A DNA stretch of 64,000 nucleotides, taken from positions 434,001 to 498,000 of the forward strand of contig NZ_CP139960.1 in the NCBI RefSeq assembly GCF_034424215.1, given 5' to 3'. The notes beneath the pieces are model-generated. The model was not told the DNA's origin and did no database searches. It saw only the letters and a program-made list of their open reading frames with translations. This DNA is from Niabella yanshanensis. Lineage in GTDB: Bacteria; Bacteroidota; Bacteroidia; Chitinophagales; Chitinophagaceae. Positions 3,742-33,111 of this stretch are shown piece by piece (within the stretch, counting starts at the first letter, position 1; the number at the start of each line of letters is the position of its first letter). A program made the translations under genes and the position numbers.

Positions 3742-3753
3742 ATAAACAGGATA

Positions 3754-8780: not shown

Positions 8781-9050
8781 CGTTGGAAGGTTTTGTTAAT
8801 ACTATAACTATTGCATCGGTCCTGCTTTCTAATTATTGGGGATATAAATATAACAAACAAAGGGTTTGAGCCCTGCTGAAAAAGATGTCGACTCCGTTAA
8901 AAGCGTATTTGCTCAAATCATCCTGTAATTACCATACTCCATCATCAACCAGGCGGCAATCTTTAATAGGAAAAAAATCCATCATATCAACCAAAACCAC
9001 CATGACGTTGAAAAAGCCCTTTGGTAAATTTACGGTTTCTAATAATTGAT

Positions 9051-11629: not shown

Positions 11630-11678
11630 TGTCTTGTCCTGGTATAGGTTGACAGTTTTTATATTAAAAAACTGACAG

Positions 11679-12071
11679 ATGACGAAGATATCCATTAGAG
11701 AACAGGTTCGGTATAGTATTAGCTTTAAGCAAAAAGTTGTCAGAGAAGTGGAGAAAGGGTTATCAGTAGAGTCTGTTCGCAGGCGGTATAATATCGGCGG
11801 GGGCAGTACTATTCAAAATTGGATCAGACAATTTGGTAAACATCATTTATTAAGTAAAGTGTTAAGAGTGGAGACGCTTGAAGAAAAAGACCGTTTAAAA
11901 GAATTGGAAGCTGAAGTAAAAAAGCTGAAGCTGGCCTTGGCAGACAGCATGTTGGAGAAGCAAGCTTTGGAGACACTAATCGACATAGTGGATGAGCATT
12001 ATGATACAGATGTAAAAAAAAATTTCGCACAGCAGTCATCCGCATGTGTGGGGAGAAAGGGCAAAAAGTAA
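11679..12071 (+). CDS. IS3-family transposase OrfA, copy 1
   Basis: The 130-residue product has an N-terminal helix-turn-helix (SFKQKVVREVEKGLSVESV, then RRRYNIGGGSTIQNWIRQFG) that binds the IS ends. A coiled-coil leucine-zipper region follows (EEKDRLKELEAEVKKLKLAL). It overlaps orfB by 28 bp, and orfB is in the -1 frame. Confidence 0.92.
   Translation: MTKISIREQVRYSISFKQKVVREVEKGLSVESVRRRYNIGGGSTIQNWIRQFGKHHLLSKVLRVETLEEKDRLKELEAEVKKLKLALADSMLEKQALETLIDIVDEHYDTDVKKNFAQQSSACVGRKGKK
12014..12022 (+). other. Probable -1 programmed frameshift site in IS copy 1
   Basis: A run of nine A residues lies in orfA just before the orfB start. The -1 frame is open from this run through the orfB ATG at 12044, reading KKKFRTAVIRMCGEK across the junction. 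Slippage here would make the OrfAB fusion transposase usual for IS3-family elements. Confidence 0.65.
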
Positions 12072-12880
12072 ATCGGCTGTGTTTGTACTTTGGTTACAGC
12101 CGTTCGGGTTATTATAAATCGCTGAGAACAATTATTCAATCGGATTTAACAGAGGCTGTAGTGGTAGATTTAGTAGGTTCGGTTCGGCGTTATCAGCCGA
12201 TGATAGGAGGTAAAAAACTGTATTCGTTATTAAAAGCTGATTTGGCAAAACCGGGCAGTAGAGTTGGTCGCGATAAGTTCTTTGATATACTACGCAAGCA
12301 GAAGTTGCTGATAAAAAGAAGAAGGAGGTATGTTACTACAACGGATTCTTATCATCGCTTTCGCAAGTATAACAATAAGGTTAAAGATCAATTACTTACA
12401 GGACCCGGCCAGGTAATTGTAAGTGATATTACTTATTTGAGGACGTCGAGCGGGTTTGTATACCTGTTTTTGCAAACAGATGCCTGGTCTCGAAAGATCA
12501 CCGGCTGGCATTTGAGTGAGAGTTTGGGTATTGCTGGAGCACTAAAAGCTCTTGAGATGAGTATCAGGCAGTATCCTTCGACGCTGGGAACGATCCACCA
12601 TTCCGATCGGGGCATCCAGTATTGTTGTGATGCTTATGTGTCAGCACTACAGGAGGCCGGAATGGAAATTAGCATGACTGAAGAAAATCATTGTTACGAG
12701 AATGCACAGGCAGAAAGGGTAAATGGGATATTGAAACAGGAATTTCTTTTAGATAGTGTATTTGCCGATAAGCAGGAAGCATTTAAAGCAGTGAAAGAGG
12801 CCATATATACTTATAATTACCGCCGTCCCCATTGGTCTTTAAATTTAAGAATACCTATACAGTTACACAATGCAGCATAG
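12044..12880 (+). CDS. IS3-family transposase OrfB (rve/DDE integrase domain), copy 1
   Basis: The 278-residue product carries an HTH_21-like region (residues 15-95) and an rve core. The catalytic triad is visible as Asp128 (VSDITY), Asp188 (HHSDRG) and Glu224 (ENAQAERVNG). The D-to-E spacing of 35 residues is that of IS3 transposases. It is probably produced mainly as an OrfAB fusion by frameshifting. Confidence 0.93.
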   Translation: MCGEKGQKVNRLCLYFGYSRSGYYKSLRTIIQSDLTEAVVVDLVGSVRRYQPMIGGKKLYSLLKADLAKPGSRVGRDKFFDILRKQKLLIKRRRRYVTTTDSYHRFRKYNNKVKDQLLTGPGQVIVSDITYLRTSSGFVYLFLQTDAWSRKITGWHLSESLGIAGALKALEMSIRQYPSTLGTIHHSDRGIQYCCDAYVSALQEAGMEISMTEENHCYENAQAERVNGILKQEFLLDSVFADKQEAFKAVKEAIYTYNYRRPHWSLNLRIPIQLHNAA

Positions 12881-13107
12881 TATGTCAAACCAGGAAGATG
12901 CGCTCGCCGCGCGGGCGGTGTAATTCTAAGGTTAACTTTTATTAAATAATGAAATTTGAAACAATATTATTAACAAGAAAAATGTCCACTTTTTTCAGGA
13001 CATGACAATGGGGGAAGAGTATTTTATTGGTTCCGTCATTTCGAATGTAGGAAAATGAGACATCTATGAAGGAGGACAAACGGGTTGAAAAAATTTAGAA
13101 TATAACA

Positions 13108-14211
13108 ATGAGATTTAACGATACAAGCAAAAAAGAAAATATTCTGGTGTTAGGCATACTGGGCCTTGGTGAAGGACGTAGCCTCATCAGTGGTGCTTTG
13201 GAAAGCAAAAAGCTCGCGTTAAAAACGCTTTGCGATATCAGTGAAGCTGCCTGTAAACAACGTAGTAAAGAGTTCGGCTTTGATCATTATACCACAAGGT
13301 ATGAGGATATGCTGAACGATCCTGATATTAATATTATCGCCATTTACACCCCCGATCACCTGCATGCGCAGCATGTAACGCAGGCTTTGCAGCATGGCAA
13401 GCATGTGGTATGCACCAAGCCTTTTATTGATAATTTGGGAGATGCAAAGGCACTGCTGGATCTGCAGGCACAGACCGGTAAAAAAGTATTGGTAGGCCAA
13501 AGCTCCCGTTTCTTCGAGCCGGCTAAACGTCAGCGTAAGGATTTTGAAGCCGGAGAGATCGGAGAGCTGATCACTATTGAAAGTAGCTATCATGCCGATC
13601 ACCGCTGGTTTTTGGAAAAGAAATGGGCATTGGAAGATGCATTTAAATGGCTATACGGAGGGTTAAGTCACCCCGTTGATTTTATAAGATGGTATCTGCC
13701 CGATGTAGAAGAAGTAATGGGATATGGAATGATCAGCGCAAACGGCAAAAAAGCGGGTTTAAGGAATGAAGATACCATGCACTTTATATTTAAAGCCACT
13801 GACGGAAGAATAGCGAGGGTGAGTGGCGTATATACTTCGCCAATCCAGCCCGCATATCGTGAGAGCGGTATGACAACTGTGTTACGCGGTACGGAAGGCG
13901 CCAGCCAGGCTGATTATCATGAGCTGCGTTACGCCATTACTGACAAAACAGGCGAGGAGAAAACCATCACCTGGGGCGATAGTACGTTGAAATATTATTT
14001 CCGTTTTGAAGGCCAAAGCCATCATGCGGGGGAGTACCAGAATTACCTGGAATATTTTGTGGATTCCATTGAACAGGGCTTTACAGCTTATCCTGATATG
14101 AAAGAGGGTATTGGAACGGTGGCTTTATTGCAAGCCATGGACGAAAGTTTGAAAACCGGTAAGCCCGTATCTGTAAAAGAATTGCTGAAGCGTTACGACC
14201 TGGATCTGTAG
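13108..14211 (+). CDS. Gfo/Idh/MocA family sugar oxidoreductase (cytosolic)
   Basis: The 367-residue NAD(P)-dependent dehydrogenase has no signal peptide. The Rossmann segment is VLGILGLGEGRSL (residues 14-26). It is followed by YTPDHLHAQHV and CTKPF with the conserved Lys104 of the EKP-type motif (Glu replaced by Thr), then the C-terminal substrate domain. It lies in the same direction as the symporter, GH78, GH127, RLP and kinase genes. Members include D-apiose dehydrogenase (ApsD) of the apiose pathway, so oxidation of a sugar feeding the RLP route is an inference from context. The substrate is not shown by the sequence. Confidence 0.85.
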   Translation: MRFNDTSKKENILVLGILGLGEGRSLISGALESKKLALKTLCDISEAACKQRSKEFGFDHYTTRYEDMLNDPDINIIAIYTPDHLHAQHVTQALQHGKHVVCTKPFIDNLGDAKALLDLQAQTGKKVLVGQSSRFFEPAKRQRKDFEAGEIGELITIESSYHADHRWFLEKKWALEDAFKWLYGGLSHPVDFIRWYLPDVEEVMGYGMISANGKKAGLRNEDTMHFIFKATDGRIARVSGVYTSPIQPAYRESGMTTVLRGTEGASQADYHELRYAITDKTGEEKTITWGDSTLKYYFRFEGQSHHAGEYQNYLEYFVDSIEQGFTAYPDMKEGIGTVALLQAMDESLKTGKPVSVKELLKRYDLDL

Positions 14212-14293
14212 ATGATAGTTAACAACCATACTACGATGTCACTCTGAGCCTGACAGCATCATTAAGAACACATCACTCATTATTTAAAAGAAA

Positions 14294-15865
14294 GTGAACA
14301 AAATATACGATAAAATAACAGGGATTGATCTGGCAATAGTAGCAGTATACTTGATTGCCTTACTGGTAATTGGATACCTGGCCAGTTTTAGCGCCCGCAA
14401 AAAAAACGAGACGCTGTTCCTGGCTAATAAATCCCTCAACTGGTATAATATCGGTTTTAACATGTGGGGCACCAATGTAGGGCCGTCATCCCTGCTCACT
14501 TTTGCCATGATCGGTTTCACCACCGGTATTACCGGGGCCAACGTAGAGCTCTATGCCTTCCTGTTCCTTTTGTTATTAACCATGGTATTTGCACCCCGGT
14601 ATATTGCCAGCAAAGTAGCCACCATGCCGGAGTATATGGGTAAACTTTTTGGCGACAGTACGCAGAACATCCTGGCCTGGTATGCATTGGTAAAAATACT
14701 GGTAAGCTGGTTATCATTAGGATTGTTTAGTGGCGGTGTTTTGGTAAGGCAGATCCTGGGAATCCCGATGTGGCAGTCGGCGATTGTGCTGGTTGCATTT
14801 TCCGGATTGTTCACCTTCGCCGGAGGTTTGAAAGCTATTGCAAGGGTGAACGTGTTCCAGATGTTATTGTTGATCACGGTGTCTATTATTATATCAGTAG
14901 TAGGATTGCAGCATGTAGGTGGATTTTCAGAACTGATGGCTAAAACTCCTGCAGGATATTGGGAGCTCATCAAACCCGCTTCGGATCCCGACTTCCCCTG
15001 GCCTGCTGTATTATTAGGATACCCGGTGGCAGCTGTTGCTTTCTTTTGTACCGATCAGGCGATGGTGCAAAGTGTATTGGGTGCAAAAAACCTGCAACAG
15101 GGTCAGTTGGGTGTTAACCTCATTGGCTGGCTGAAAGTATTGGCTTTACCTTTATTTATACTGCCGGGCATATTGTGTTTTGTTTTGTTTCCGGCGGCTC
15201 AACCCGATGAAGCGTACATGACGATGGTTACCCAGCTACTGCCCACCGGTGTTATCGGGTTGGTGATATGCGTATTAATAGCAGTATTGGTAGCTACTAT
15301 AGGTTCTTCTTTAAATGCCTTAAGTACGGTTTTCACTAATGATATTTATGTAAAGAAGATGAATCCCGAAGCATCTGTAAAAAAACAAATACAGGTAGGA
15401 AGAATAATAGTAGTAGCAGGTTGTGTTATTGCAGTATTAATGGCCATCGCTCTTGATAATGTAAAAGGGCAAAGCCTTTTCTATATTTTCCAGTCTATAC
15501 TTGGATTTTTGGCGCCCTCTTTATCGGTGGTATTTTTATTAGCTGTTTTCTGGAAAAGATTAACCCGTTTAGCGGTAAATTTTACATTAAGTTGGGGATC
15601 GGTTTTCAGCCTTACAGTAGGATTGATCTATTTATGGATATTACCTAAAGACGGGAATCCATATTTTACCTGGCCGCATCCTTTTATGATTTCCTTCTAC
15701 ATTTTTGCCATCTTGTTCGTGCTGGCTATTATCATATCATTATTGGGTAAAGCACCTGAGCCGAAAACGATAGAAGCAGAAGCGATTCCACCTACCAGCA
15801 GCAAAGTGAAGTGGTTATTTGGCTTATTAGGGGTGGTTATAATTATTATTTACATTTTATTCTAA
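14294..15865 (+). CDS. Sodium:solute symporter (SSS) family transporter
   Basis: The 523-residue polytopic inner-membrane protein has about 13-14 hydrophobic segments. SSS hallmarks are the N-terminal FNMWGTNVGPSSLLTFAMIGFT-like sodium-site region and GGLKAIARVNVFQMLLL in the middle. GTG at 14294 is the first start before TM1 (IDLAIVAVYLIALLVIGYLA). It follows the oxidoreductase by 82 bp and precedes GH78 by 20 bp. It probably imports the sugar or sugar acid released by the neighbouring hydrolases. The catabolic region has no SusC/SusD pair. Confidence 0.88.
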   Translation: MNKIYDKITGIDLAIVAVYLIALLVIGYLASFSARKKNETLFLANKSLNWYNIGFNMWGTNVGPSSLLTFAMIGFTTGITGANVELYAFLFLLLLTMVFAPRYIASKVATMPEYMGKLFGDSTQNILAWYALVKILVSWLSLGLFSGGVLVRQILGIPMWQSAIVLVAFSGLFTFAGGLKAIARVNVFQMLLLITVSIIISVVGLQHVGGFSELMAKTPAGYWELIKPASDPDFPWPAVLLGYPVAAVAFFCTDQAMVQSVLGAKNLQQGQLGVNLIGWLKVLALPLFILPGILCFVLFPAAQPDEAYMTMVTQLLPTGVIGLVICVLIAVLVATIGSSLNALSTVFTNDIYVKKMNPEASVKKQIQVGRIIVVAGCVIAVLMAIALDNVKGQSLFYIFQSILGFLAPSLSVVFLLAVFWKRLTRLAVNFTLSWGSVFSLTVGLIYLWILPKDGNPYFTWPHPFMISFYIFAILFVLAIIISLLGKAPEPKTIEAEAIPPTSSKVKWLFGLLGVVIIIIYILF

Positions 15866-15885
15866 AAATATAACGGTTACTTTTT

Positions 15886-18084
15886 ATGAATACAGGGTTA
15901 CAGAATTTAAAATTCAAAATTCAAAATTTAAAATGGGCAATCTCGTTTATTGCTTTCTTGTCTTTGTGTCAAACAGCACTGGCCCAAAAAGCCGAGTGGG
16001 TCTGGTATCCGGGCGACTATGAAATATGGTTGTCTAACCAGATGCAAAACCGTCGCACCGAAAGAGGCGTATTTTTCCCGGTATTCTGGAAGATCGATAA
16101 CCATTATCCGTTAATTGATTTTCATAAAGTATTTGAGCTGACTGAACCTGAAGAAGTGGAGATCTATGTACAGGGGCAATATAATGTAAAGCTGGATGGA
16201 AAGGCTTTTGAAGGATATCCGAGAAAGATAACCGTTCCGGCCGGCAAACACAAGATCAATATTAAAGTGTTCAACCAGGCACAGGTTCCGGCCATATTTG
16301 TAAGAGGTAAGAAAATAGTAAGTGACAGTACCTGGCTGGTGACTTTTGAAGATAAGGAGTGGATTGATGAAACCGGTAAAACCTCTGATGTTTCTACTAC
16401 CAAGTGGATGAATGCCGGTATGTGGAATTTTTACGATCCTAAGCAATTGCCTTCTGATTTTAAACTCCCGGTAAAACCTGCGGAAGCGGCAACCAGTACT
16501 AAAGAATCAGGTGGTACATTAATCGATTTTGGAAAAGAAACCTTCGGCTATATTAAGCTCCATAATTTAAAGGGAAGAGGTAAACTGGCTATTTATTATG
16601 GCGAAAGCCGTGAAGAGGCACTTGATACCGCACATACAGAAACTTATGATAAATTAAATATTGATCAAACCGGCGGAGATTATACAGTTGATTTATCCAA
16701 GGCGTTCCGTTTTGTAAATATTATTGCAGATGCAGGGATTAGTTTTGATAAAGCTTCGATGTTATACGAATACGCTGACCTGCAGGATAAAGGAGGTTTT
16801 AAATGTAATGATGAAGAGATCAACAAAATCTATGATGTAGCCAAATACACTTTCCATTTAAGCACCAAAGAATTTTTTATAGATGGCATTAAAAGAGACC
16901 GTTGGGTATGGAGCGGAGATGCTTACCAAAGCTATCTGATGAACTATTATCTTACTAATGATAATGGTACCGTAAAAAGAACGACTTTATCCTTAAGAGG
17001 GAAAGATCCTGTAACCAGTCATATCAATACCATTATGGATTATACCCTGTACTGGTTCCTGGGTGTGTACGACTATTATCTCTACAGTGGGGATGCTGCA
17101 TTTGTGAAGGATAATTACGATCGCATGAAATCGCTAATGGCTTATGTATTGGGACGCCGCAATAAAGATGGTCTACTGGAGGGCTTGCCCGGCGACTGGG
17201 TATTTATAGACTGGGCTGAAGGACTGAGCAAGCAGGGAGCCGTTAGTTTTGAGCAATTACTATTTGCTCGCAGCCTGGAGACGATGGCGCTGGTGGCAGA
17301 TCTGGTTCAGGAAAAAGAAGATGCCGGTATGTATGCGGGCCTGGCTAAAGATGTTAAGAAGAAATTGTTTGACTTATACTGGAACGAACAAAAACAGGCT
17401 ATTGTACACAGTTATGTAAATGGCAAGCCAACAGATCATGTAACGCGTTACGCTAATATGTTTGCTATCTTCTTCGATTACCTAAGCGATGCGCAGAAGA
17501 AAAATATTAAGAATACAGTTCTGTTAAATAATAGTGTGCCGCCTATCACAACACCCTACATGCGGTTTTATGAAATGGAGGCTTTATGTGCTTTAGGTGA
17601 ACAGAACTATGTGACGAAAGAAATGAAATCTTACTGGGGTGGTATGTTAAAGCTGGGAGCTACTTCTTTCTGGGAAGAGTACAATCCTAAAAAATCAGGC
17701 GCCGAACATTATGCGATGTACGGCCGTAAATATGGTAAAAGCCTTTGCCACGCATGGGGCGCCAGTCCGCTGTACCTGTTGGGTAAATACTATCTAGGCG
17801 TAAAGCCAACCGGAGCCGGCTATAGCACGTACACGATTGAACCGGCATTAGGTGGCTTGAAATGGATGGAAGGAAAAGTGCCGACACCGGCCGGTAATAT
17901 TGAGCTGTATTGCAGTACTAATAACATAAAAGTTAGTTCACCGGTTGGCACGGGCAAGCTGGTGCTGAAAAGTAAAAAAGCGCCGTCTTCAAAAGAAGGC
18001 AGCTTCGTCAATAAAGGTAATAACGTCTATGAGCTGACTTTAGAGAAGGATAAGAAGTATGAGATAAAGTATCAGGCGTTGTAG
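15886..18084 (+). CDS. Secreted alpha-L-rhamnosidase, GH78-like
   Basis: The 732-residue exported enzyme has a signal peptide ending QTALAQ. An N-terminal beta-sandwich precedes the (alpha/alpha)6 domain, which opens with the GH78 motif DGIKRDRWVWSGD (Asp333, Asp338, Asp345). A C-terminal beta-domain follows YSTYTIEPALGGLKW. GH78 enzymes cleave terminal alpha-L-rhamnose, as in rhamnogalacturonan and glycosides. It is 20 bp after the symporter and 51 bp before GH127. The n-region of the signal peptide is encoded by a repetitive AATTCAAAATT tract (15904-15934), which is odd. Confidence 0.82.
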   Translation: MNTGLQNLKFKIQNLKWAISFIAFLSLCQTALAQKAEWVWYPGDYEIWLSNQMQNRRTERGVFFPVFWKIDNHYPLIDFHKVFELTEPEEVEIYVQGQYNVKLDGKAFEGYPRKITVPAGKHKINIKVFNQAQVPAIFVRGKKIVSDSTWLVTFEDKEWIDETGKTSDVSTTKWMNAGMWNFYDPKQLPSDFKLPVKPAEAATSTKESGGTLIDFGKETFGYIKLHNLKGRGKLAIYYGESREEALDTAHTETYDKLNIDQTGGDYTVDLSKAFRFVNIIADAGISFDKASMLYEYADLQDKGGFKCNDEEINKIYDVAKYTFHLSTKEFFIDGIKRDRWVWSGDAYQSYLMNYYLTNDNGTVKRTTLSLRGKDPVTSHINTIMDYTLYWFLGVYDYYLYSGDAAFVKDNYDRMKSLMAYVLGRRNKDGLLEGLPGDWVFIDWAEGLSKQGAVSFEQLLFARSLETMALVADLVQEKEDAGMYAGLAKDVKKKLFDLYWNEQKQAIVHSYVNGKPTDHVTRYANMFAIFFDYLSDAQKKNIKNTVLLNNSVPPITTPYMRFYEMEALCALGEQNYVTKEMKSYWGGMLKLGATSFWEEYNPKKSGAEHYAMYGRKYGKSLCHAWGASPLYLLGKYYLGVKPTGAGYSTYTIEPALGGLKWMEGKVPTPAGNIELYCSTNNIKVSSPVGTGKLVLKSKKAPSSKEGSFVNKGNNVYELTLEKDKKYEIKYQAL
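15904..15934. repeat. AATTYAAAATTCAAAATTCAAAA-type repeat inside the GH78 signal peptide
   Basis: The tract is built of repeated 8-9-base units of AATT(C/T)AAA. It encodes NLKFKIQNLK at residues 7-18 of the GH78 precursor. Such tracts usually sit between genes. Here one is translated in frame. Confidence 0.6.
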
Positions 18085-18116
18085 TGGATGAAGAGTGAGT
18101 AATCAATAGTGAATGG
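18082..18116. repeat. Short TAGTGAATGG-type intergenic repeat
   Basis: It begins at the GH78 stop codon and runs gtagtggatg, agagtgagtaatc, aatagtgaatgg. It is the same family as 11571-11629 and 22742-22780. It lies between GH78 and the GH127 start. Confidence 0.5.
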
Positions 18117-18135
18117 ATTTGAAAAAAATATACGC

Positions 18136-20151
18136 ATGAAAAAAGGATTTAAATTATTAGTAGCAGGTATAGTTTGTAGTGCGTCGGTAAAGGCACAGAG
18201 TGCACTGGTAAACACTTCTCAAAGTAAATATGCTAAGCTGTCTGGCGTTGGGTTAAGCGATGTGCAATGGACCAAGGGCTTTTGGGCCGAACGTTTTGAT
18301 GTATTGAAAAATTCTATGGTGCCTGCATTATGGCGCACTTATACCAGCGACACCATTTGTTATTCGTTCCAGAATTTCAAAGTAGCAGCTGGTTTACAGG
18401 AAGGACGGTTTAGAGGGCCTTCTTTCCACGACGGAGATTTTTATAAAACCCTGGAGGCTGTGGCATCCTTGTATGCATCTACCAAAGACCCTAAATTAAA
18501 TGGTTGGATGGAAGAAGCCATTGCGGTGATTGGCAAAGCTCAAAGGGCTGATGGTTATATTTATACCAAAAACATTATTGAGCAAAACAAAACCGGCGAG
18601 CAGAAAATGTTCGACGATAAGCTGAGCTTTGAAGCCTATAATTTTGGTCACCTGATGACCGCCGGTTGTGTCCATTACCGGGCTACAGGAAAAACCAATT
18701 TATTGGATATTGCCAAAAAAGCATCAGACTTCCTGATCGTTTTTTATACCAAAGCAACGCCCGAACAGGCCCGCAATGCCATCTGCCCCTCACACTACAT
18801 GGGACTGGCCGAAATGTATCGCACCACCAAAGAAAAGAAATACCTCGATCTCCTAAATAAGCTGATTGATGTAAGGGGAACGGTAGAAGGTACCGATGAT
18901 AACAGTGATCGTGCTCCTTTCAGGGATATGAAAAGAATTGTTGGGCACGCAGTAAGAGCCAATTACCTGATGGCGGGTGTAGCAGACCTGTATGCAGAAG
19001 AGGGAGATAAAACTTTACTGGCCACCCTGGATACTTTATGGAATAATGTGATCAATACCAAAATGTATGTAACCGGTGCCTGTGGCGCTTTGTACGACGG
19101 CGTTTCAGTTGACGGCACTTCTTATATTCCTGATACGGTTCAGAAGGTACACCAGTCTTATGGCCGGGATTACCAGCTGCCTAATTTTAGTGCGCATAAT
19201 GAAACCTGCGCCAATATCGGTAATGTGCTGTGGAACTATCGCATGTTCCTATTAACCGGAGAAGAGAAATATTTTGATATTGTTGAGTTAGCATTATATA
19301 ATAGTGTGTTGAGTGGCATCAGCATGGATGGTACTAAATTCTTTTATACCAATCCACTCGCGCATACCGTTGACTACCCCTATCATTTGCGTTGGGAAGG
19401 TGGCCGGGTTCCTTATATCAGCAAGTCGAATTGTTGCCCACCTAACGTAGTGCGCACGATTGCACAGGTTAGCAATTACATGTACAGCACCGGTAAAGAT
19501 GGTTTGTATATTAATATGTATGGTGGTAATAAGCTGCAAACCGTATTAAATGATGGCAGTAAACTGGCACTGCAGCAGGTGAGTAACTACCCCTGGGATG
19601 GTGCCGTATCTCTTTCGATAACGGAAGCGCCTGCAAAAACCTTACCCGTTCATCTGCGCATTCCAGGCTGGTGTAATAAAGCATCGGTAAAAGTAAACGG
19701 CAAGCTGGTAAATGGCGCTATCAATGGTGGTCAATATTTTACTTTAGATCAAAAATGGAAAAAGGGGGATAAAATAGAATTGGTGCTGGATATGCCGGCT
19801 GCTTTGATCGAATCCAATCCAATGGTGGAGGAAACCCGTAACCAGGTAGCAGTAAAAAGAGGCCCTGTCGTTTATTGCATTGAATCACCTGATATGCCGG
19901 CTCAAAAAGTATTCAATATTGCGATCCCCTCTAACATACAATTAAAGCCAGTACCTGCAACTATTGCCAATGGTAATATGATGGCGCTTACCGGTGAAGC
20001 CAGGCTTCTAAGCAATGGTGACTGGACCAGAACCCTGTATAAAGAAATCAGCAAAAAACAAACGCCGGTAAACATTAAATTAATTCCTTACTATGCATGG
20101 GCCAACCGAGGAGAAACCGATATGAGTGTATGGATGCCATTAGTAAGATAG
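18136..20151 (+). CDS. Secreted beta-L-arabinofuranosidase-like glycoside hydrolase, GH127
   Basis: The 671-residue product has a signal peptide (MKKGFKLLVAGIVCSASVKAQ). The start is ATG 18136 rather than an in-frame GTG at 18109 inside the preceding repeat. The DUF1680/GH127 zinc-cysteine centre is intact: NETC gives Glu356 and Cys358, and SNCCPPN gives Cys433 and Cys434. These match Glu338, Cys340, Cys417 and Cys418 of the characterised enzyme HypBA1, where Cys417 is the nucleophile. GH127 members act on beta-L-arabinofuranose and, in rhamnogalacturonan-II loci, on aceric acid. Context with GH78, GH106 and GH2 points to pectin side chains. Confidence 0.88.
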   Translation: MKKGFKLLVAGIVCSASVKAQSALVNTSQSKYAKLSGVGLSDVQWTKGFWAERFDVLKNSMVPALWRTYTSDTICYSFQNFKVAAGLQEGRFRGPSFHDGDFYKTLEAVASLYASTKDPKLNGWMEEAIAVIGKAQRADGYIYTKNIIEQNKTGEQKMFDDKLSFEAYNFGHLMTAGCVHYRATGKTNLLDIAKKASDFLIVFYTKATPEQARNAICPSHYMGLAEMYRTTKEKKYLDLLNKLIDVRGTVEGTDDNSDRAPFRDMKRIVGHAVRANYLMAGVADLYAEEGDKTLLATLDTLWNNVINTKMYVTGACGALYDGVSVDGTSYIPDTVQKVHQSYGRDYQLPNFSAHNETCANIGNVLWNYRMFLLTGEEKYFDIVELALYNSVLSGISMDGTKFFYTNPLAHTVDYPYHLRWEGGRVPYISKSNCCPPNVVRTIAQVSNYMYSTGKDGLYINMYGGNKLQTVLNDGSKLALQQVSNYPWDGAVSLSITEAPAKTLPVHLRIPGWCNKASVKVNGKLVNGAINGGQYFTLDQKWKKGDKIELVLDMPAALIESNPMVEETRNQVAVKRGPVVYCIESPDMPAQKVFNIAIPSNIQLKPVPATIANGNMMALTGEARLLSNGDWTRTLYKEISKKQTPVNIKLIPYYAWANRGETDMSVWMPLVR

Positions 20152-20196
20152 CCCATGAAAAGTTGGAAGCTTCAGTATTAGCAATAAATAAACAAG

Positions 20197-21441
20197 ATGG
20201 AGAGAATTATCGGAACCTACTATATAGAAACGCCTTATGATCCGGAGAAAGCTGCCGCAGTATTGGCAGGAGAGCAGTCCTCAGGAACCTTTGTAGCAGT
20301 ACCTGGTGAAACAGAGGAACTGAAGCAACGGTTTGCCGCCAGGGTGGAGGACGTGGCTTTGTTAGAGACCGTTGATCTGTCGGCCATTCCCGGTGCGGTT
20401 AGCAGTACAGGTAAATATCATAGAGCCAGGGTGAAGGTTTCCTGGAGCATTGAAAATTTTGGCTATAACTTACCCGTAATGGTGTCTAGCTTGCAGGGCA
20501 ACCTGTATGAGATTACTCAATTTACCGGCTTAAAGTTAATGGACATCGAATTGCCATCTTCCTTCGGCCAGCAATTTAAGGGCCCTGAATTTGGCATTGC
20601 AGGCTGCAGGCAATTAACCGGGATAGCAGAAAGGCCGTTAATCGGCACCATCATCAAGCCTTCTATAGGCCTGACCGTGGTGGATACTGCGGCTATGGTG
20701 CAAACACTGGCTGATGCCGGTATTGATTTCATAAAAGATGATGAGCTATTATCTTCTTCCGCAAATTCGCGTTTCGAAGACAGGGTAGCCGGTATTATGA
20801 AGGTGATCAACACACATGCAGATAAAACAGGCAAAAAAGTGATGTACGCTTTTAACCTGAGCGGGGAAATGGATGAAATGTTGTCGCGCTACGAAACAAT
20901 TGTAAAGCATGGTGGTACCTGTGCCATGATCAGCATTAACAGTGTCGGACTAAGCGCTGTTAAAAAGATATGTGATCAGCGCCAGCTGGCCATACACGCG
21001 CATCGTAACGGATGGGGTATGTTGACAAGACATCCGTTATTGGGTATTGATTTCAGGGCTTATCAAAAAATATGGAGATTGGCGGGTGTGGACCAATTAC
21101 ATGTAAATGGTATAAAAAACAAATTCTGGGAAACGGATGATAGTGTGGTGAATTCTATTGAAGCCTGTTTAACTCCATTATTCGATCAAAAAAATGTGAT
21201 CCCGGTTGTCTCCTCAGGCCAATGGGGGGGGCAGGCTTTTGAAACCTGGAGACGCACGCAAACACAGGATCTTTTATATATGGCAGGTGGAGGTATTATG
21301 GCCCATCCCATGGGGGTTGCTGCAGGAGTTGCTGCTTTGCAGCAGGCATGGTCTTCGGCAGTGGAGGGATTGACATTGGAAGAAGCGGCAGCCACCTACC
21401 CCGAATTTGCAAAGAGTGTAGAGAAATTTGGTGATAAATAA
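20197..21441 (+). CDS. RuBisCO-like protein (form IV, RLP), probable sugar-acid decarboxylase/transcarboxylase
   Basis: The 414-residue protein has the RuBisCO large-subunit fold but is not a carboxylating RuBisCO. Seen are KPSIGL (Lys154, equivalent to Lys175; Lys177 is replaced by Ser156) and GIDFIKDDE, with Lys180, Asp182 and Glu183 matching the carbamate/metal residues 201, 203 and 204. HAHRNG (His269, Arg270), a loop-6-like NGIKNKF and GGGIMAHP are also present. Known RLP roles are methionine-salvage enolase, D-apionate-pathway OiaX/OiaT and others. The DUF1537 kinase starts 1 bp after the stop. A substrate phosphorylated by that kinase, such as 3-oxo-isoapionate-4-phosphate, is therefore likely but inferred. 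Confidence 0.9.
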   Translation: MERIIGTYYIETPYDPEKAAAVLAGEQSSGTFVAVPGETEELKQRFAARVEDVALLETVDLSAIPGAVSSTGKYHRARVKVSWSIENFGYNLPVMVSSLQGNLYEITQFTGLKLMDIELPSSFGQQFKGPEFGIAGCRQLTGIAERPLIGTIIKPSIGLTVVDTAAMVQTLADAGIDFIKDDELLSSSANSRFEDRVAGIMKVINTHADKTGKKVMYAFNLSGEMDEMLSRYETIVKHGGTCAMISINSVGLSAVKKICDQRQLAIHAHRNGWGMLTRHPLLGIDFRAYQKIWRLAGVDQLHVNGIKNKFWETDDSVVNSIEACLTPLFDQKNVIPVVSSGQWGGQAFETWRRTQTQDLLYMAGGGIMAHPMGVAAGVAALQQAWSSAVEGLTLEEAAATYPEFAKSVEKFGDK

Positions 21442-21442
21442 T

Positions 21443-22759
21443 ATGCCGGCTCAACCTCAAATACAGTTGGCCTTCTATGGCGATGATTTCACCGGATCTA
21501 CCGATGCACTGGAGTTTGCCTGCAGGGCAGGAGCTAAGGCCATTTTATTTATTGAACCTCCCAACGTATCTGCATTAACCAGGTTCCCGGGCATTAACGT
21601 CATCGGAGTAGCAGGTAAAACAAGATCGTTGGGTCCAGATGAAATGGAGCAGGTGTTAACAGAGGCATTTAGTCAATTAAAGCAATTCGGCCCGAGGCAT
21701 ATACATTATAAAGTATGTTCTACTTTTGACTCTTCGCCTTTAGTAGGAAGCATTGGGCGCGTGATGGATGTTGGGGCTGCTGTTTTCGCGGGTAAGCTGA
21801 TACCTGTTTTAGGAGGTACTCCTTCTTTAGGCCGCTATTGTGTGTTTGGGAATTTGTTTGCGAGAATGGGAATTGGTAGCAATGGTGCGATCTATCGTTT
21901 AGACCGGCACCCTTCCATGACCAAACACCCCGTTACACCAGCCGATGAAAGCGATCTGCGTTTACATATACAAAAGCAAACCAGCAAACGGCTGGCATTG
22001 ATCGATATCGTTCAAATGCAAAAACCAATAACCGAATGGGATCAGGCGATACAAGATGAAGATGCCGTATTAGTGGATACTTCCGAAGAACAACAGTTGG
22101 GAAAAATAGGCGATTGGCTGGACGCGAAGGCCAACGAAAATGAACCCTTGTTTTCAATAGGGTCTTCAGCCGTGGAAGTGGCTTTGGGCACTGTATGGAA
22201 TAAAACGGGCGATGGAAAAGTCTTACCCGAATGGATTGAACCAGGTAAGGCAGAACCGTTATTGGTAGTTTCAGGAAGCTGTTCACCAGTAACTGCAGGC
22301 CAGATAAATTGGTCTAAAGAAAATGGATTTAAAGAGGTCATATTAAATGCTATTGCTGTTTGTGATGACGGAGTCACCGAGTCGATCATCGAAGCTGTAA
22401 ACAGTTTGTTAAAGAGCGGAAAGAACGTAGTGGTACATACCGGCTCTAAAGATGGAGCCAATCTATCCTCCGAAAAACTGGGGACAGCCTTAGGCAGTAT
22501 TGCAAGAAGCGCCGTAGAAACCTGTTCACTAAAACGGGTTGTAATTGCGGGCGGCGATACCAGTAGTTATGCAGCAAGAGCGATGCAAATTGAAGCAGTG
22601 GAAATGATTGCCCCATTGGTAGCAGGAGCGCCTTTGTGTAAAGCCTATTCACAAAACCGGGCCATTGATGGACTGGAAGTGAATTTTAAAGGAGGACAGG
22701 TGGGCGCGCCGGATTATTTTGGTGTGCTGAGAGAGGGGAGAATGATGAATAATGAATAG
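21443..22759 (+). CDS. Four-carbon acid sugar kinase family protein (DUF1537; OiaK/OtnK-like)
   Basis: The 438-residue kinase opens with FYGDDFTGSTDALEF, the N-terminal DUF1537 motif. It has the C-terminal nucleotide-binding VIAGGDTSSYAAR. Family members phosphorylate 3-oxo-tetronates or 3-oxo-isoapionate with ATP in the cytosol. The start is ATG 21443, one base after the RLP stop, not the TTG/GTG codons inside the RLP gene, so the pair is tightly coupled. The last codons (MMNNE, stop) run into a TGAATAG-type repeat, and IS copy 2 inserted 21 bp later. Confidence 0.88.
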   Translation: MPAQPQIQLAFYGDDFTGSTDALEFACRAGAKAILFIEPPNVSALTRFPGINVIGVAGKTRSLGPDEMEQVLTEAFSQLKQFGPRHIHYKVCSTFDSSPLVGSIGRVMDVGAAVFAGKLIPVLGGTPSLGRYCVFGNLFARMGIGSNGAIYRLDRHPSMTKHPVTPADESDLRLHIQKQTSKRLALIDIVQMQKPITEWDQAIQDEDAVLVDTSEEQQLGKIGDWLDAKANENEPLFSIGSSAVEVALGTVWNKTGDGKVLPEWIEPGKAEPLLVVSGSCSPVTAGQINWSKENGFKEVILNAIAVCDDGVTESIIEAVNSLLKSGKNVVVHTGSKDGANLSSEKLGTALGSIARSAVETCSLKRVVIAGGDTSSYAARAMQIEAVEMIAPLVAGAPLCKAYSQNRAIDGLEVNFKGGQVGAPDYFGVLREGRMMNNE

Positions 22760-22780
22760 TCAATTGTGAATGGTGAATGG
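22742..22780. repeat. TGAATAGT/TGAATGG short tandem repeat at kinase 3' end
   Basis: Units atgatgaat, aatgaatagt, caattgtgaatgg and tgaatgg span the kinase stop codon and end at the IS copy 2 border. It is the same repeat class as 11571-11629. The sequence continues as tggtgaattg past the IS, so the IS split one repeat tract. Confidence 0.6.
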
Positions 22781-22829
22781 TGTCTTGTCCTGGTATAGGT
22801 TGACAGTTTTTATATTAAAAAACTGACAG

Positions 22830-23222
22830 ATGACGAAGATATCCATTAGAGAACAGGTTCGGTATAGTATTAGCTTTAAGCAAAAAGTTGTCAGAGAAGT
22901 GGAGAAAGGGTTATCAGTAGAGTCTGTTCGCAGGCGGTATAATATCGGCGGGGGCAGTACTATTCAAAATTGGATCAGACAATTTGGTAAACATCATTTA
23001 TTAAGTAAAGTGTTAAGAGTGGAGACGCTTGAAGAAAAAGACCGTTTAAAAGAATTGGAAGCTGAAGTAAAAAAGCTGAAGCTGGCCTTGGCAGACAGCA
23101 TGTTGGAGAAGCAAGCTTTGGAGACACTAATCGACATAGTGGATGAGCATTATGATACAGATGTAAAAAAAAATTTCGCACAGCAGTCATCCGCATGTGT
23201 GGGGAGAAAGGGCAAAAAGTAA
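22830..23222 (+). CDS. IS3-family transposase OrfA, copy 2
   Basis: Identical in translation to the copy 1 OrfA. A 130-residue HTH plus coiled-coil protein overlapping orfB by 28 bp. Confidence 0.92.
   Translation: MTKISIREQVRYSISFKQKVVREVEKGLSVESVRRRYNIGGGSTIQNWIRQFGKHHLLSKVLRVETLEEKDRLKELEAEVKKLKLALADSMLEKQALETLIDIVDEHYDTDVKKNFAQQSSACVGRKGKK
23165..23173 (+). other. Probable -1 frameshift site in IS copy 2
   Basis: An A9 run in the orfA 3' part, with the -1 frame open into orfB, as in copy 1. Confidence 0.65.
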
Positions 23223-24031
23223 ATCGGCTGTGTTTGTACTTTGGTTACAGCCGTTCGGGTTATTATAAATCGCTGAGAACAATTATTCAATCGGATTTAA
23301 CAGAGGCTGTAGTGGTAGATTTAGTAGGTTCGGTTCGGCGTTATCAGCCGATGATAGGAGGTAAAAAACTGTATTCGTTATTAAAAGCTGATTTGGCAAA
23401 ACCGGGCAGTAGAGTTGGTCGCGATAAGTTCTTTGATATACTACGCAAGCAGAAGTTGCTGATAAAAAGAAGAAGGAGGTATGTTACTACAACGGATTCT
23501 TATCATCGCTTTCGCAAGTATAACAATAAGGTTAAAGATCAATTACTTACAGGACCCGGCCAGGTAATTGTAAGTGATATTACTTATTTGAGGACGTCGA
23601 GCGGGTTTGTATACCTGTTTTTGCAAACAGATGCCTGGTCTCGAAAGATCACCGGCTGGCATTTGAGTGAGAGTTTGGGTATTGCTGGAGCACTAAAAGC
23701 TCTTGAGATGAGTATCCGGCAGTATCCTTCGACGCTGGGAACGATCCACCATTCCGATCGGGGCATCCAGTATTGTTGTGATGCTTATGTGTCAGCACTA
23801 CAGGAGGCCGGAATGGAAATTAGCATGACTGAAGAAAATCATTGTTACGAGAATGCACAGGCAGAAAGGGTAAATGGGATATTGAAACAGGAATTTCTTT
23901 TAGATAGTGTATTTGCCGATAAGCAGGAAGCATTTAAAGCAGTGAAAGAGGCCATATATACTTATAATTACCGCCGTCCCCATTGGTCTTTAAATTTAAG
24001 AATACCTATACAGTTACACAATGCAGCATAG
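23195..24031 (+). CDS. IS3-family transposase OrfB, copy 2
   Basis: The protein is identical to the copy 1 OrfB, with the triad Asp128, Asp188, Glu224. The single base change (C at 23717) leaves Arg unchanged. Confidence 0.93.
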   Translation: MCGEKGQKVNRLCLYFGYSRSGYYKSLRTIIQSDLTEAVVVDLVGSVRRYQPMIGGKKLYSLLKADLAKPGSRVGRDKFFDILRKQKLLIKRRRRYVTTTDSYHRFRKYNNKVKDQLLTGPGQVIVSDITYLRTSSGFVYLFLQTDAWSRKITGWHLSESLGIAGALKALEMSIRQYPSTLGTIHHSDRGIQYCCDAYVSALQEAGMEISMTEENHCYENAQAERVNGILKQEFLLDSVFADKQEAFKAVKEAIYTYNYRRPHWSLNLRIPIQLHNAA

Positions 24032-24212
24032 TATGTCAAACCAGGAAGATGCGCTCGCCGCGCGGGCGGTGTAATTCTAAGGTTAACTTTTATTAAATAA
24101 TGAAATTTGAAACAATATTATTAACAAGAAAAATGTCCACTTTTTTCAGGACATGACATGGTGAATTGCGGTATTTGAGCCAGCTACCAGCCACTCGTCA
24201 AAAAATAAAAAT

Positions 24213-24905
24213 ATGGAAAATAATAAGAACACCTCTTCCGGGGTTGGGAGTAAAACGTTAGGATTGGTTCATACATCGGCTACATTGGTACCCGTGTTTG
24301 ATGAGCTTTGTAAAAAGCATTTACCGGGTGTAAAAGTCTTTAATATTGTTGATGATAGCCTGATCAAAAACACGATCGCCTGTGGTGAGCTGACACCACA
24401 AACGGCTAAACGTGTGGTAAACTATGCTAATTCGGCAGAAGAAGCAGGTGCTGATCTTATCATGTTTACCTGCTCATCAATTGGCGCTGCTGTTGAAACG
24501 GCCGATACTTTGACCGGTGTGCCGGTACTGCGTGTAGACCAGCCCATGGCTGATAAAGCAGTTGCATCGGGCAGTAAAATAGGAGTGGTGGCTACTTTGT
24601 CCACCACATTAGAACCCACCAGCGACCTGGTAAGGCGACGTGCCATTGTTGCAGGTAAAAATATTGAGCTGGTTTCCCGTCTTTGTGAAGGAGCCTTCGA
24701 AGCCTTAATGAGCGGCGATGCTCAAAAGCATGATGATATTGTGGGCGCTGCATTAAAACAATTATCACTGGAAGTGGATGTAATCCTGTTGGCCCAGGCT
24801 TCTATGGCCCGCGTGGTCGGGACCTTGTCCGAAGAAGATAAGAAAGTACCGATATTGGCTAGTCCGCCTTTGGCGATGGAATATTTAGCCAGAGTATTAA
24901 AATAA
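24213..24905 (+). CDS. Aspartate/glutamate racemase-fold protein, atypical active site
   Basis: The 230-residue cytosolic protein has the tandem alpha/beta fold of the Asp/Glu racemase superfamily. TLGLVHTSATLVPVF is at the N-terminus, and ADLIMFTCSSIG carries the first catalytic-type Cys87. At the place of the second catalytic Cys it reads LLAQASMARV (residues 192-201), with no Cys. That argues against a two-base racemase and for a one-Cys decarboxylase/isomerase-like enzyme. The gene lies in line with RLP and kinase, separated only by IS copy 2, and 17 bp before the BASS gene. Its step in the pathway is unknown. Confidence 0.78.
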   Translation: MENNKNTSSGVGSKTLGLVHTSATLVPVFDELCKKHLPGVKVFNIVDDSLIKNTIACGELTPQTAKRVVNYANSAEEAGADLIMFTCSSIGAAVETADTLTGVPVLRVDQPMADKAVASGSKIGVVATLSTTLEPTSDLVRRRAIVAGKNIELVSRLCEGAFEALMSGDAQKHDDIVGAALKQLSLEVDVILLAQASMARVVGTLSEEDKKVPILASPPLAMEYLARVLK

Positions 24906-24922
24906 ACGAAACGATTGCTGCC

Positions 24923-26224
24923 ATGATTAAATTATATCGGATCAGTTTATGGGTTTGTATTGTTGCTGCGGCTGGGTTATTGATGAGCTTATTGTTGCAT
25001 CAACCTGACCTGAGTAAAATACTTGCAGTTGTTACAGCTGTTTCACTGGCATTAGGTTTAGGCTCGGTGTCGGCGCTTAAAGGTTATCAATATACGGCAT
25101 GGATTATTGCCGCCGTGGTGGCCGGAATGGTGTACCCACAGGCTTTTATGAACTGGGGACCTGTGAACCTGAGGGACAAGACTTTGATACTGGTCATTAT
25201 CCAGTTGGTGATGTTTGGGATGGGTACGCATATGAGCCTGAGAGATTTTAAAGGATTGGCGAGTACGGGCAAAGGTGTTATTGTTGGTCTGCTGTGTCAT
25301 TTTTCCGTAATGCCTTTAATGGGAGTATTACTCACTAAGGTCTTTGATTTTGAGCCGGAGATCGCGGCCGGTATTATATTGATCGGCAGTTGTAGCAGTG
25401 GGCTGGCGTCTAACGTAATGGTTTACCTGGCAAGGGCCAACCTGGTGTTGTCGGTTATTGTTACAGCTATGGCTACATTGGCTGCTCCTTTTTTAACGCC
25501 CTTATTGATGAAGACCTTTGCAGGTACATTAATAGAAGTGAAGTTCATTGATATGATGATCGAGATTATTAAGATCGTTATCGTACCCATAGGTGCAGCC
25601 TTATTACATGATTACCTGAAAGGGGCCGGCAAAGCCAGGGCGAGAGGTATCATTGTAGCAGCAGTGATTTGCGCTGTTTACGCGCTATCGGTTTTATTGT
25701 GGCTGTATCCCAGTATCGCAGCAAGCGGGGCATCACATGCGGCTTTACAGTCTTTAGAATTATCGGGCTTCCTGGCGGCCGCAGTTGTGGCAGGTACCCT
25801 GTATCACCAGTTGTATAAAGTGTATCCAAAAGTAGATCAGCTGATGCCTTTTATCTCGATGTTTGGTATCATCTACTTCACTACCGTTACTACAGCAGCA
25901 GGCAGGGATAACCTCATGAAAGTTGGTTTTTTATTGTTCATCGCATCGGTGGTCCATAATGCGGCGGGTTATTTCTTTGGTTACTGGTTCAGTCGCTTTT
26001 TCGGGCTCGACAGGAATTCCAGTCGCACCGTGGCTTTTGAAGTAGGCTTACAAAACGGGGGAATGGCAAGCGGTCTTGCCGGATCGATGGGGAAGTTGGG
26101 CACGGTAGGCCTTGCGGCTGCAGTCTTTAGTCCCTGGATGAATATAAGCGGAAGTATATTGGCTAACTACTGGAGGAAGAGGCCTGTGGAGCCTTCAAAG
26201 GAAAAAGAACCCGAGGAGAAGTGA
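24923..26224 (+). CDS. Bile acid:sodium symporter (BASS) family carrier
   Basis: The 433-residue polytopic membrane protein has about 10 or more hydrophobic segments. The BASS-type strings are GMGTHMSLRDFKG, CSSGLASNVMVYLARANLVLS, the following TLAAPFLTPLLMK, and a late GLQNGGMASGLAG. BASS carriers move organic anions with sodium. Known substrates across the family include bile acids, pyruvate, pantoate and, in plants, glycolate. It starts 17 bp after the racemase-fold gene and ends in a charged tail. Import of a sugar acid or export of a pathway product are both possible. Confidence 0.85.
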   Translation: MIKLYRISLWVCIVAAAGLLMSLLLHQPDLSKILAVVTAVSLALGLGSVSALKGYQYTAWIIAAVVAGMVYPQAFMNWGPVNLRDKTLILVIIQLVMFGMGTHMSLRDFKGLASTGKGVIVGLLCHFSVMPLMGVLLTKVFDFEPEIAAGIILIGSCSSGLASNVMVYLARANLVLSVIVTAMATLAAPFLTPLLMKTFAGTLIEVKFIDMMIEIIKIVIVPIGAALLHDYLKGAGKARARGIIVAAVICAVYALSVLLWLYPSIAASGASHAALQSLELSGFLAAAVVAGTLYHQLYKVYPKVDQLMPFISMFGIIYFTTVTTAAGRDNLMKVGFLLFIASVVHNAAGYFFGYWFSRFFGLDRNSSRTVAFEVGLQNGGMASGLAGSMGKLGTVGLAAAVFSPWMNISGSILANYWRKRPVEPSKEKEPEEK

Positions 26225-26396: not shown

Positions 26397-29663
<3,267 letters not shown>

Positions 29664-32700: not shown

Positions 32701-33111
32701 GTTAGCTTTCCGAAACTTGTTTTATGGAATAACCATGATGAACCGGCAATAAAGTATTACTCCGGACAGGCTACTTATACCAATCGTTTTACTCTAAGCG
32801 ATGTGTCCAAAGATCGACCGGTATATCTTTCCATCGATAGCGTTTTTAACATAGCTACGGTAATTGTAAATGGTACCGATTGCGGCACTATTTGGACCGC
32901 TCCCTATCAACTGGATATTTCTAAAGCAATCAAGACTGGTGACAATACCATAGAAATTAAAGTAAGCAATACATGGGCCAATCGCCTGATAGGCGATATA
33001 AGCTTACCCCAGGAGAAACGCATTACCTGGACAACGGCACCTCTGAATTTGCTGGAAGGGAGGCCGCTGTTGAAGGCAGGATTAGAAGGTGCAGTAAAGA
33101 TTTGGCAATAA
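29740..33111 (+). CDS. Secreted alpha-L-rhamnosidase, GH106-like
   Basis: The 1123-residue exported protein has an N-terminal hydrophobic signal (VIGLAIVWILVGFKGFTQ). The GH106 start pattern RPWVLWYWMHGAVSKEGITAD is shared in part with family members, followed by GIGGVYLACIYD. Later it has AENVAPTMVSDG and VQAEAFTNLRMEW, then C-terminal beta-domains with WAHRKLDHADVYFVSN. GH106 enzymes remove alpha-L-rhamnose, notably in rhamnogalacturonan-II. It is last in the co-oriented block. A small hairpin with a TATTTTTG loop precedes it (29666-29684). Confidence 0.85.
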   Translation: MVRITKVIGLAIVWILVGFKGFTQVKTDASLQDVFKNPPESARPWVLWYWMHGAVSKEGITADLEGIQKNGIGGVYLACIYDTVARIPFDKTARQLSPEWWGMVNHAMKECKRLGLKMAFHVSDGFALAGGPWIKPEQSMQKLVWTKTYVKAGDEAATQLEQPETKEGFYKDVAVYAYPANSANAFSETVTIPSVTTSTGERAPYLAFPGDDSKTFRSDSSCWIQYKYPKPFTLRSLTTHTGSRQYQAQRFIVQSSDDGIVFNTVIKLTPPRHGWQNDDEDNTFSIPPTTAKYFRFVFDKEGTEAGSEDLDAAKWKPTLKVMGIYLSDEPVINQYQAKNASVWRVAENTTDHMVPTTDAVPFKSIINLTSKMDKEGNLKWKPASGEWVIVRIGHTSTGHTNATGGAAKGLECDKFDPAAIKLQFDNWYAKAFEKTDPGLAKEVLKIFYIDSWEAGSQNWNKTFAAEFKKRRGYDLMPYLLVMTGTPVNDAATSEKILHDVRETLAELVNDVFYVTLRKLADQKKLGFTAENVAPTMVSDGLLHFKTVDFPTGEFWLKSPTHDKPNDMFDAISAAHIYGKNIVQAEAFTNLRMEWNEHPGNIKVVGDRNFAMGMNKPIVHVMTHNPWMHRKPGMTLGSIGLFFQRDQTWFSQSRAWIDYMARVSALLQQGKPVADIAVFIGEEIPRRSILPDRLVNTLPGIFGSERVASEKLRLENKGQPQRVIPVGVGHSANMADPDDWTDALRGYKYDCFNPDVLLKAKVVGGQVVFPSGAGYKILVFPGKLLMNPNSNLVSAAVARKILELKEAGATIIIEKRAVNSIGLKEKNAALQKVWAQLFIKSGKGRVIETPYMEETFESLGVARDIDITSGDVPLAWAHRKLDHADVYFVSNQQNKRISVPVSFRVTDLTPELWDPVSGKIKRTEWEVRGERTHLNLSLDANEAMFVVFKKTAEKVPGPSTAVAVKQLADINTNWLVRFDINLGGPAEPVSFPKLVLWNNHDEPAIKYYSGQATYTNRFTLSDVSKDRPVYLSIDSVFNIATVIVNGTDCGTIWTAPYQLDISKAIKTGDNTIEIKVSNTWANRLIGDISLPQEKRITWTTAPLNLLEGRPLLKAGLEGAVKIWQ

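Follow-up and report, generated by a model that had tools for sequence, protein, structure and literature searches.

The kinase OiaK, a DUF1537 protein of D-apionate degradation, phosphorylates the CH2OH group next to a ketone, and its product is the substrate of the RuBisCO-like proteins (RLPs) OiaX and OiaT; the routes that combine OiaK with OiaX or with OiaT were reportedly described by Carter et al. in 2018. RLPs catalyze either decarboxylation or transcarboxylation/hydrolysis of 3-oxo-isoapionate-4-phosphate (PMC6302742). For D-apiose, a transketolase route consists of ApsI, AplK and AptA/AptB (PMC13001218). Rhamnogalacturonan II (RG-II) occurs in all plants (PMC12168206); aceric acid is 3-C-carboxy-5-deoxy-L-xylose (PMC8218411), and BT1003 is named aceric acid hydrolase, AceH (PMC10850190). 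Here, we analyze a stretch of 64,000 nucleotides from Niabella yanshanensis (positions 434,001 to 498,000 of NZ_CP139960.1, hereafter the window), in which an AceH gene is followed by genes for an RLP, a DUF1537 kinase, a protein of the Asp/Glu-racemase fold (RAC) and a sodium/bile-acid-type anion symporter (BASS). The sequence comparisons suggest that these four genes probably constitute a pathway for L-aceric acid that is coupled to RG-II breakdown, and that L-aceric acid is very likely their substrate.

As in the D-apionate routes, the RLP and the DUF1537 kinase stand in tandem, and the predicted substrate would be a one-group homologue of 3-oxo-isoapionate. Unlike in those routes, the window RLP forms a separate clade, scores below the OiaX cut-off, is accompanied by no ApnO-type match and is linked to AceH. 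The cassette carries RAC and BASS, whereas annotated relatives carry sugar-phosphate isomerases together with an ABC importer (locus L126) or TRAP importers (L127–L129, L133 and L137). The pairing of an RLP with a DUF1537 kinase is already known; the substrate, the isomerase and the carrier would be new. RG-II loci of the Bacteroides BT1001–BT1003 type, whose order we take to be GH78, GH141 and GH127 AceH, have a similar set of hydrolases; unlike them, the window locus also has genes predicted to take up and degrade the released sugar, and we know of no such cassette in Bacteroides.

To our comparison belong the loci of the best 80 of 523 relatives of the window RLP (labelled L; sampled genomes are labelled G), with the window itself excluded from the locus counts; 61 of them are longer than 20 kb and are termed full-flank loci. 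By tblastn, the RLP was found in 80, the kinase in 76, RAC in 75 and BASS in 75 of these loci. All four recur in 74 of the 80 loci (59/61 with full flanks), so the order RLP–kinase–RAC–BASS is not a product of chance. The full cassette is lacking in two long loci (L044 and L048) and on four short contigs (L038, L043, L054 and L104). The kinase lies directly 3′ of the RLP in 74 of the 78 loci that have an RLP open reading frame (ORF), which is absent from the gene calls in L050 and L104. In five loci (L056, L065, L078, L087 and L088), the four genes stand apart from the recurrent neighbour clusters, except that in L078 cluster c40 follows BASS at a distance of 1.7 kb; the cassette therefore looks self-contained, and the genomes of all five carry AceH elsewhere. 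The original prediction had left the racemase-fold protein and the BASS carrier without a place in the known route and allowed for a new variant; both prove to be core members of the cassette.

The cassette occurs in Bacteroidota, Balneolota, Verrucomicrobiota and Planctomycetota. Among the best 80 of 523, the closest RLPs come from a Niabella metagenome-assembled genome (MAG) and another Chitinophagaceae MAG (83% identity). In Rufibacter tibetensis, a plasmid of mobilizable type bears both the cassette and, at another site, AceH at 57.6% identity. The genes upstream of AceH behave differently from the cassette: among the neighbour clusters, the Gfo/Idh/MocA oxidoreductase was seen in 12, the SSS symporter in 15 and GH78 in 15 of the 80 loci, and these three form a separate unit rather than part of the cassette core. 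In L113, from a genome of the same genus as the window (G269), the series GH141–Gfo–SSS–GH78–AceH–GH106 is kept without the cassette and without the GH2 gene between AceH and GH106. The Gfo/Idh/MocA protein, which had been proposed as the first enzyme of the pathway (ApsD), was rejected on these two grounds, its rarity and its retention in the cassette-less L113. The members of another same-genus pair, L082 and L115 (G138), differ in whether the cassette stands between AceH and the gene that follows.

AceH accompanies the RLP at several levels. It was found for all 80 RLP loci, within the locus in 44 (at least 44% identity; in L033, only a 62-residue AceH end at the contig edge) and elsewhere in the genome in 36 (at least 47%); the search elsewhere covered 38 genomes, and its sole miss was the genome of L033. 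On the same strand, AceH directly precedes the RLP in 26 of 78 loci, more often than any other gene does, and the gap between the two is at most 125 bp in 24 of the 40 loci in which both are ORFs (AceH longer than 300 aa). In a sample of 395 genomes from the window's phylum, some RLP match occurs in 125 and a close one in only 8 (at least 69% identity; the rest at most 35%); AceH is present in 21, including all 8 (hypergeometric probability 1.5e-11, shared ancestry ignored). For a verrucomicrobial class, 286 genomes were compared: the RLP (E at most 1e-120) is present in 13, AceH in 13 and the two together in 12 (3e-19, shared ancestry again ignored). The AceH ortholog cuts, 50% identity for the phylum and 46% for the verrucomicrobial genomes, were set after the score gaps had been seen (665 to 553 bits and 653 to 553 bits, respectively). 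G618 was left out of the 13, as its 50% match is shorter (492 residues) and stands without RLP or RAC.

RAC follows the same distribution. In the phylum sample, it is present in 8 of the 21 AceH genomes, exactly the RLP carriers, and in 12 of the 18 verrucomicrobial genomes tested, exactly those with RLP and AceH; overall, it was found in 20/20 genomes with both and in 0/19 others (39 tested). G696 and G649 additionally hold a distant RAC homologue (33–35%). BASS orthologs (at least 57% identity) are likewise present in all 20 RLP-plus-AceH genomes of the samples, split over two contigs in G649, and 15 other genomes gave only weaker or partial matches, in G190 (47–53%, partial) and G557 (42%). 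G557 has the RLP and the kinase but no RAC, no adjoining BASS and no AceH, and in the tree its RLP lies apart from the AceH-linked clade described below. At that locus (L138), the pair lies near weakly Gfo/Idh-like and sugar-binding-like proteins and maybe belongs to an apionate route. In G569, AceH stands beside apiose-type genes, with no cassette in the 19 kb examined.

The RLP is related to OiaX but is not OiaX. It scored 518 bits against the OiaX model (NF042437; cut-off 700, control annotated oiaX 786) and 137 bits against the model of MtnW (cut-off 514), with which it shares the RuBisCO fold; an MtnW identity was rejected on that score, in agreement with the earlier view of a kinase-coupled, OiaX/OiaT-like protein. 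Nor is it a true RuBisCO, with 252 bits against the form III model (cut-off 497) and 233 against the large-subunit model (cut-off 438). Two trees were built, one of 42 rows, for which the clade was cut to one row in three together with chosen rows, and one of 31 rows, with a hand-picked set. In both, the window RLP fell into an AceH-linked clade (support 98/94 and 100/98) beside, not inside, the OiaX branch (two rows, 100/100). In RuBisCO numbering, all 78 relatives keep E60, T65, N123, K175, K201, D203, E204, H294, R295, H327, K334, S379, G403 and G404, among which K175, K201, D203, E204, H294 and K334 comprise the catalytic Lys, the carbamate-type Lys and the acidic metal ligands. The clade differs from RuBisCO in K177 (Ser), W66 (Phe) and H298 (Trp). 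The two annotated OiaX proteins carry D60, G123, Q327 and G379, whereas the kinase-linked RLPs of L127, L128, L129 and L133 retain the RuBisCO letters at these positions.

AceH passed the NCBI equivalog model for aceric acid hydrolase (NF049879) with 1156.4 bits against a cut-off of 950, and its best match in the PDB was 5mqo (804 bits). It contains the motifs ETCANIG and CCPPN, which we take to be catalytic, and its N-terminus looks signal-peptide-like by eye. These features suggest that it frees L-aceric acid from side chain B of RG-II. The kinase reached 386 bits against the OiaK model (NF042436, cut-off 700); the cut-off is uninformative here because the kinase adjoining the annotated oiaX also falls below it (469 bits). 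BASS scored 209 bits against the PanS model (cut-off 400), and RAC matches no NCBIfam model. RAC has only one of the two catalytic Cys of Asp/Glu/hydantoin racemases: the first is kept as C87, and the second is replaced by Q195, at the alignment position of the second Cys in two hydantoin-racemase chains; both C87 and Q195 are invariant in 73/73 rows. The single Cys argues against racemization by two bases and would suit a 1,2-proton shift by one base.

We propose a plausible mechanism by which the cassette may degrade aceric acid. AceH, a member of the named family, would release aceric acid in the periplasm, and BASS would import the L-acerate anion with Na+. RAC would then convert the aldose to the ketose HOCH2-CO-C(OH)(COOH)-CHOH-CH3, equivalent to 3-oxo-isoapionate in which one CH2OH is CHOH-CH3. 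This predicted ketose would be a beta-keto acid with its carboxyl on a tertiary carbinol and would resemble the six-carbon intermediate of RuBisCO. By analogy with OiaK, the kinase would phosphorylate the CH2OH beside the ketone. For the RLP, we favor a carboxyl shift followed by hydrolysis, as in OiaT, to give 3-phosphoglycerate and L-lactate; alternatively, decarboxylation only, as in OiaX, would yield a 5-deoxypentulose 1-phosphate for an aldolase. L-Lactate is the predicted product because of the L configuration at C4. The route would be redox-neutral and need no dehydrogenase, which fits a cassette without one. The OiaT-like outcome is preferred because the RuBisCO letters are retained where both OiaX proteins differ; no annotated OiaT or OiaT model was among the sequences and models compared. 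It is possible, though somewhat doubtful, that the RLP performs the cleavage half-reaction of RuBisCO on a natural plant sugar in this way, after a one-Cys racemase-fold isomerase and a kinase, to 3-phosphoglycerate and L-lactate, and the full mechanism as drawn is likewise put forward tentatively.

If correct, this reading would give aceric acid its first pathway and the Asp/Glu-racemase fold an activity new to it, and it would close the gap on the fate of this rare plant cell-wall sugar in bacteria that strip RG-II. Soil bacteria could then probably eat aceric acid by means of the cassette, and the RuBisCO superfamily would gain a natural substrate resembling RuBisCO's own intermediate. A racemase-fold family covered by no NCBIfam model would also acquire a role that can be tested. 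No description of aceric acid catabolism was found in a literature search outside which most subscription journals lay; in their accessible parts, PMC6353982 gives aceric acid in a list of sugars only, and PMC11739564 concerns galactosidase specificity.

Several observations weigh against the aceric acid pathway. AceH lies within 10 kb of the RLP in only 31 of the 61 full-flank loci, and it occurs without the cassette in 13 of 21 phylum genomes and in 1 of 13 verrucomicrobial ones. Outside Bacteroidota, AceH shows only 44–50% identity, near that of other GH127 proteins (at most 45%), and three verrucomicrobial AceH proteins scored 906 and 883 bits, just below the NF049879 cut-off, and 958, above it. 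The kinase is missing within 10 kb in L044 and L048. We know of no aldose–ketose isomerase activity in the Asp/Glu-racemase fold. A related Natronococcus RLP (L136) adjoins a class II aldolase (3360–4358) and an FGGY kinase, and such an aldolase would suit decarboxylation by the RLP. GH140, the apiosidase family, was found in 21/21 AceH genomes of the phylum sample, so that aceric acid and other RG-II sugars cannot be told apart by genome co-occurrence alone; in G033, G202, G021 and G343, four of the eight phylum RLP genomes, GH140 is even closer to the RLP than AceH is. The Niabella yanshanensis genome (5.54 Mb, one contig) has a second apiosidase-family protein at 3.48 Mb (307 bits; L112, C1:3470501-3490500), whose neighbours fit no cluster.

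It is unlikely, but deserves weighing, that aceric acid is degraded with the RLP as a plain OiaX-like decarboxylase, RAC as a later epimerase or isomerase of 5-deoxypentulose 1-phosphate, a fucose/rhamnose-type aldolase as the splitting enzyme and the first isomerase encoded elsewhere. OiaX is indeed the nearest named RLP model, the annotated oiaX cluster L126 has two isomerases after RLP and kinase, and the Natronococcus aldolase would agree with such a route. Of the 80 loci, 9 have a xylose-isomerase-like TIM-barrel protein (c16) nearby; RAC, however, is a constant partner of the cassette, and c16 is not. Against decarboxylation also stand E60, N123, H327 and S379, kept throughout the clade at positions that are D, G, Q and G in the two OiaX controls. 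Nor did a Pfam scan of 20 neighbour-cluster representatives, with rarer neighbours outside it, show an aldolase. Pyruvate kinase genes lie beside the RLP–kinase pairs on Haloterrigena and Azospirillum plasmids (L127 9734-12783, with enolase also present, and L128 10044-11459). We give this hint at 3-phosphoglycerate little weight, because L129, L133 and L137 have no pyruvate kinase beside the RLP and L136 has the aldolase instead. From the neighbours in L127, L128 and L136, related RLPs may perhaps have different products.

That the cassette serves another RG-II acid, such as Dha or Kdo, or an oligosaccharide fragment, with the AceH link reflecting a shared RG-II gene pool, appears improbable. 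RG-II loci are mixed, and 8 of the 61 full-flank loci have a BT_1020-like gene (c17) within 10 kb; directly upstream of the RLP, nonetheless, AceH is found more often than any other gene. To our knowledge, aceric acid is the only RG-II sugar in which a tertiary carbinol already bears the carboxyl that the RLP and kinase chemistry needs. In L044 and L048, a BT_1020-like and then a GH43-like gene occupy the usual place of the kinase after the RLP.

The original prediction was that the cluster frees a sugar such as apiose and degrades it by an RLP route. In the same genome, a GH140 apiosidase lies about 0.5 Mb away (C1:968230, L111) with a split transketolase, a fucose-isomerase-fold protein and an ABC sugar import set, and an FGGY kinase (cluster c20) lies just beyond (L143); this locus resembles the ApsI/AplK/AptAB route, whose enzymes and chemistry differ from those of the cassette. 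A transketolase-type set occurs once in the same gene run as the cassette: verrucomicrobial L140 has, consecutively on one strand, an isomerase, transketolase halves, an FGGY kinase, an MFS carrier, GH78, AceH, RLP, kinase, RAC and BASS. Judging from this side-by-side arrangement and the separate apiose locus, the enzymes that act on apiose are most likely not those that act on the RLP substrate. Searches for GH140 and ApnO had been suggested; the former succeeded, and the latter, with a gene of L126 that we took for ApnO as query, gave no full-length match in the eight phylum RLP genomes (best E 0.004 over 83 of 275 residues). Within 10 kb, GH140 is present in 3 of the 61 full-flank loci, compared with the 31 for AceH, and in the 14 verrucomicrobial genomes tested all GH140 matches are weaker (51–241 bits), the strongest in G557. 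Hence oxidation of apiose followed by a kinase and RLP acting as OiaK and OiaX/OiaT is very improbable, even though OiaX and OiaK are the nearest NCBIfam models and GH140 accompanies AceH as described, given the separate locus, L140, the ApnO result, the distances and a cassette without a dehydrogenase.

All genes named in the original prediction are present on the + strand, with the kinase ATG at 21443, 1 bp past the RLP stop; the AceH–RLP gap is 45 bp. Its hydrolase cluster of rhamnogalacturonan type is borne out as well: with GH141, GH78, GH2, GH106 and a GH139-like protein, the region is RG-II-like. The structure matched by the last, 9HYQ, is one of two in the GH139 paper (PMC12282258).

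Table 1. Features of the window around the four-gene cassette.
Feature	Position	Strand	Remark
GH141-type protein	9021..11573	+	fused to L-rhamnose mutarotase (rhaM) domain at C-terminus
Insertion sequence (IS) element, copy 1	11630..13007	+	between GH141 and Gfo/Idh/MocA
Gfo/Idh/MocA oxidoreductase	13108..14211	+	associated, not core
SSS symporter	14294..15865	+	associated, not core
GH78, alpha-L-rhamnosidase-like	15886..18084	+	associated
AceH, GH127 aceric acid hydrolase (predicted)	18109..20151	+	NCBIfam NF049879
RLP	20197..21441	+	PF00016/PF02788
Kinase (KIN), DUF1537, four-carbon acid sugar kinase type	21443..22759	+	PF07005/PF17042
IS element, copy 2	22781..24158	+	between kinase and RAC, outside both reading frames
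RAC, Asp/Glu-racemase fold	24213..24905	+	PF01177, 83 bits
BASS, sodium/bile-acid-type anion symporter	24923..26224	+	PF01758
GH2, beta-galactosidase-like	26403..29663	+	downstream of BASS
GH106, alpha-L-rhamnosidase-like	29740..33111	+	
GH139-like	34498..36804	-	2-O-methyl-fucosidase family, RG-II chain B; 879 bits to PDB 9hyq

The two IS copies, 1378 bp each with 1 mismatch and in the same orientation, bracket the stretch from the Gfo/Idh/MocA gene to the kinase. An origin of this stretch as a composite transposon was rejected, since relatives (e.g., L031, L035 and L039) share the gene order without the split between kinase and RAC. The IS pair is probably a later and recent arrival because the kinase adjoins RAC in those relatives; it now parts RAC and BASS from the rest and might mobilize the Gfo-to-kinase stretch. 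Relatives of the GH141–rhaM protein are of similar length in L113 (842 aa) and L120 (833 aa), and several others have 624–695 aa. Farther downstream, at 56714-59041, the window encodes a long protein that appears, by eye, to be a polysaccharide lyase joined to a GH88-type domain.

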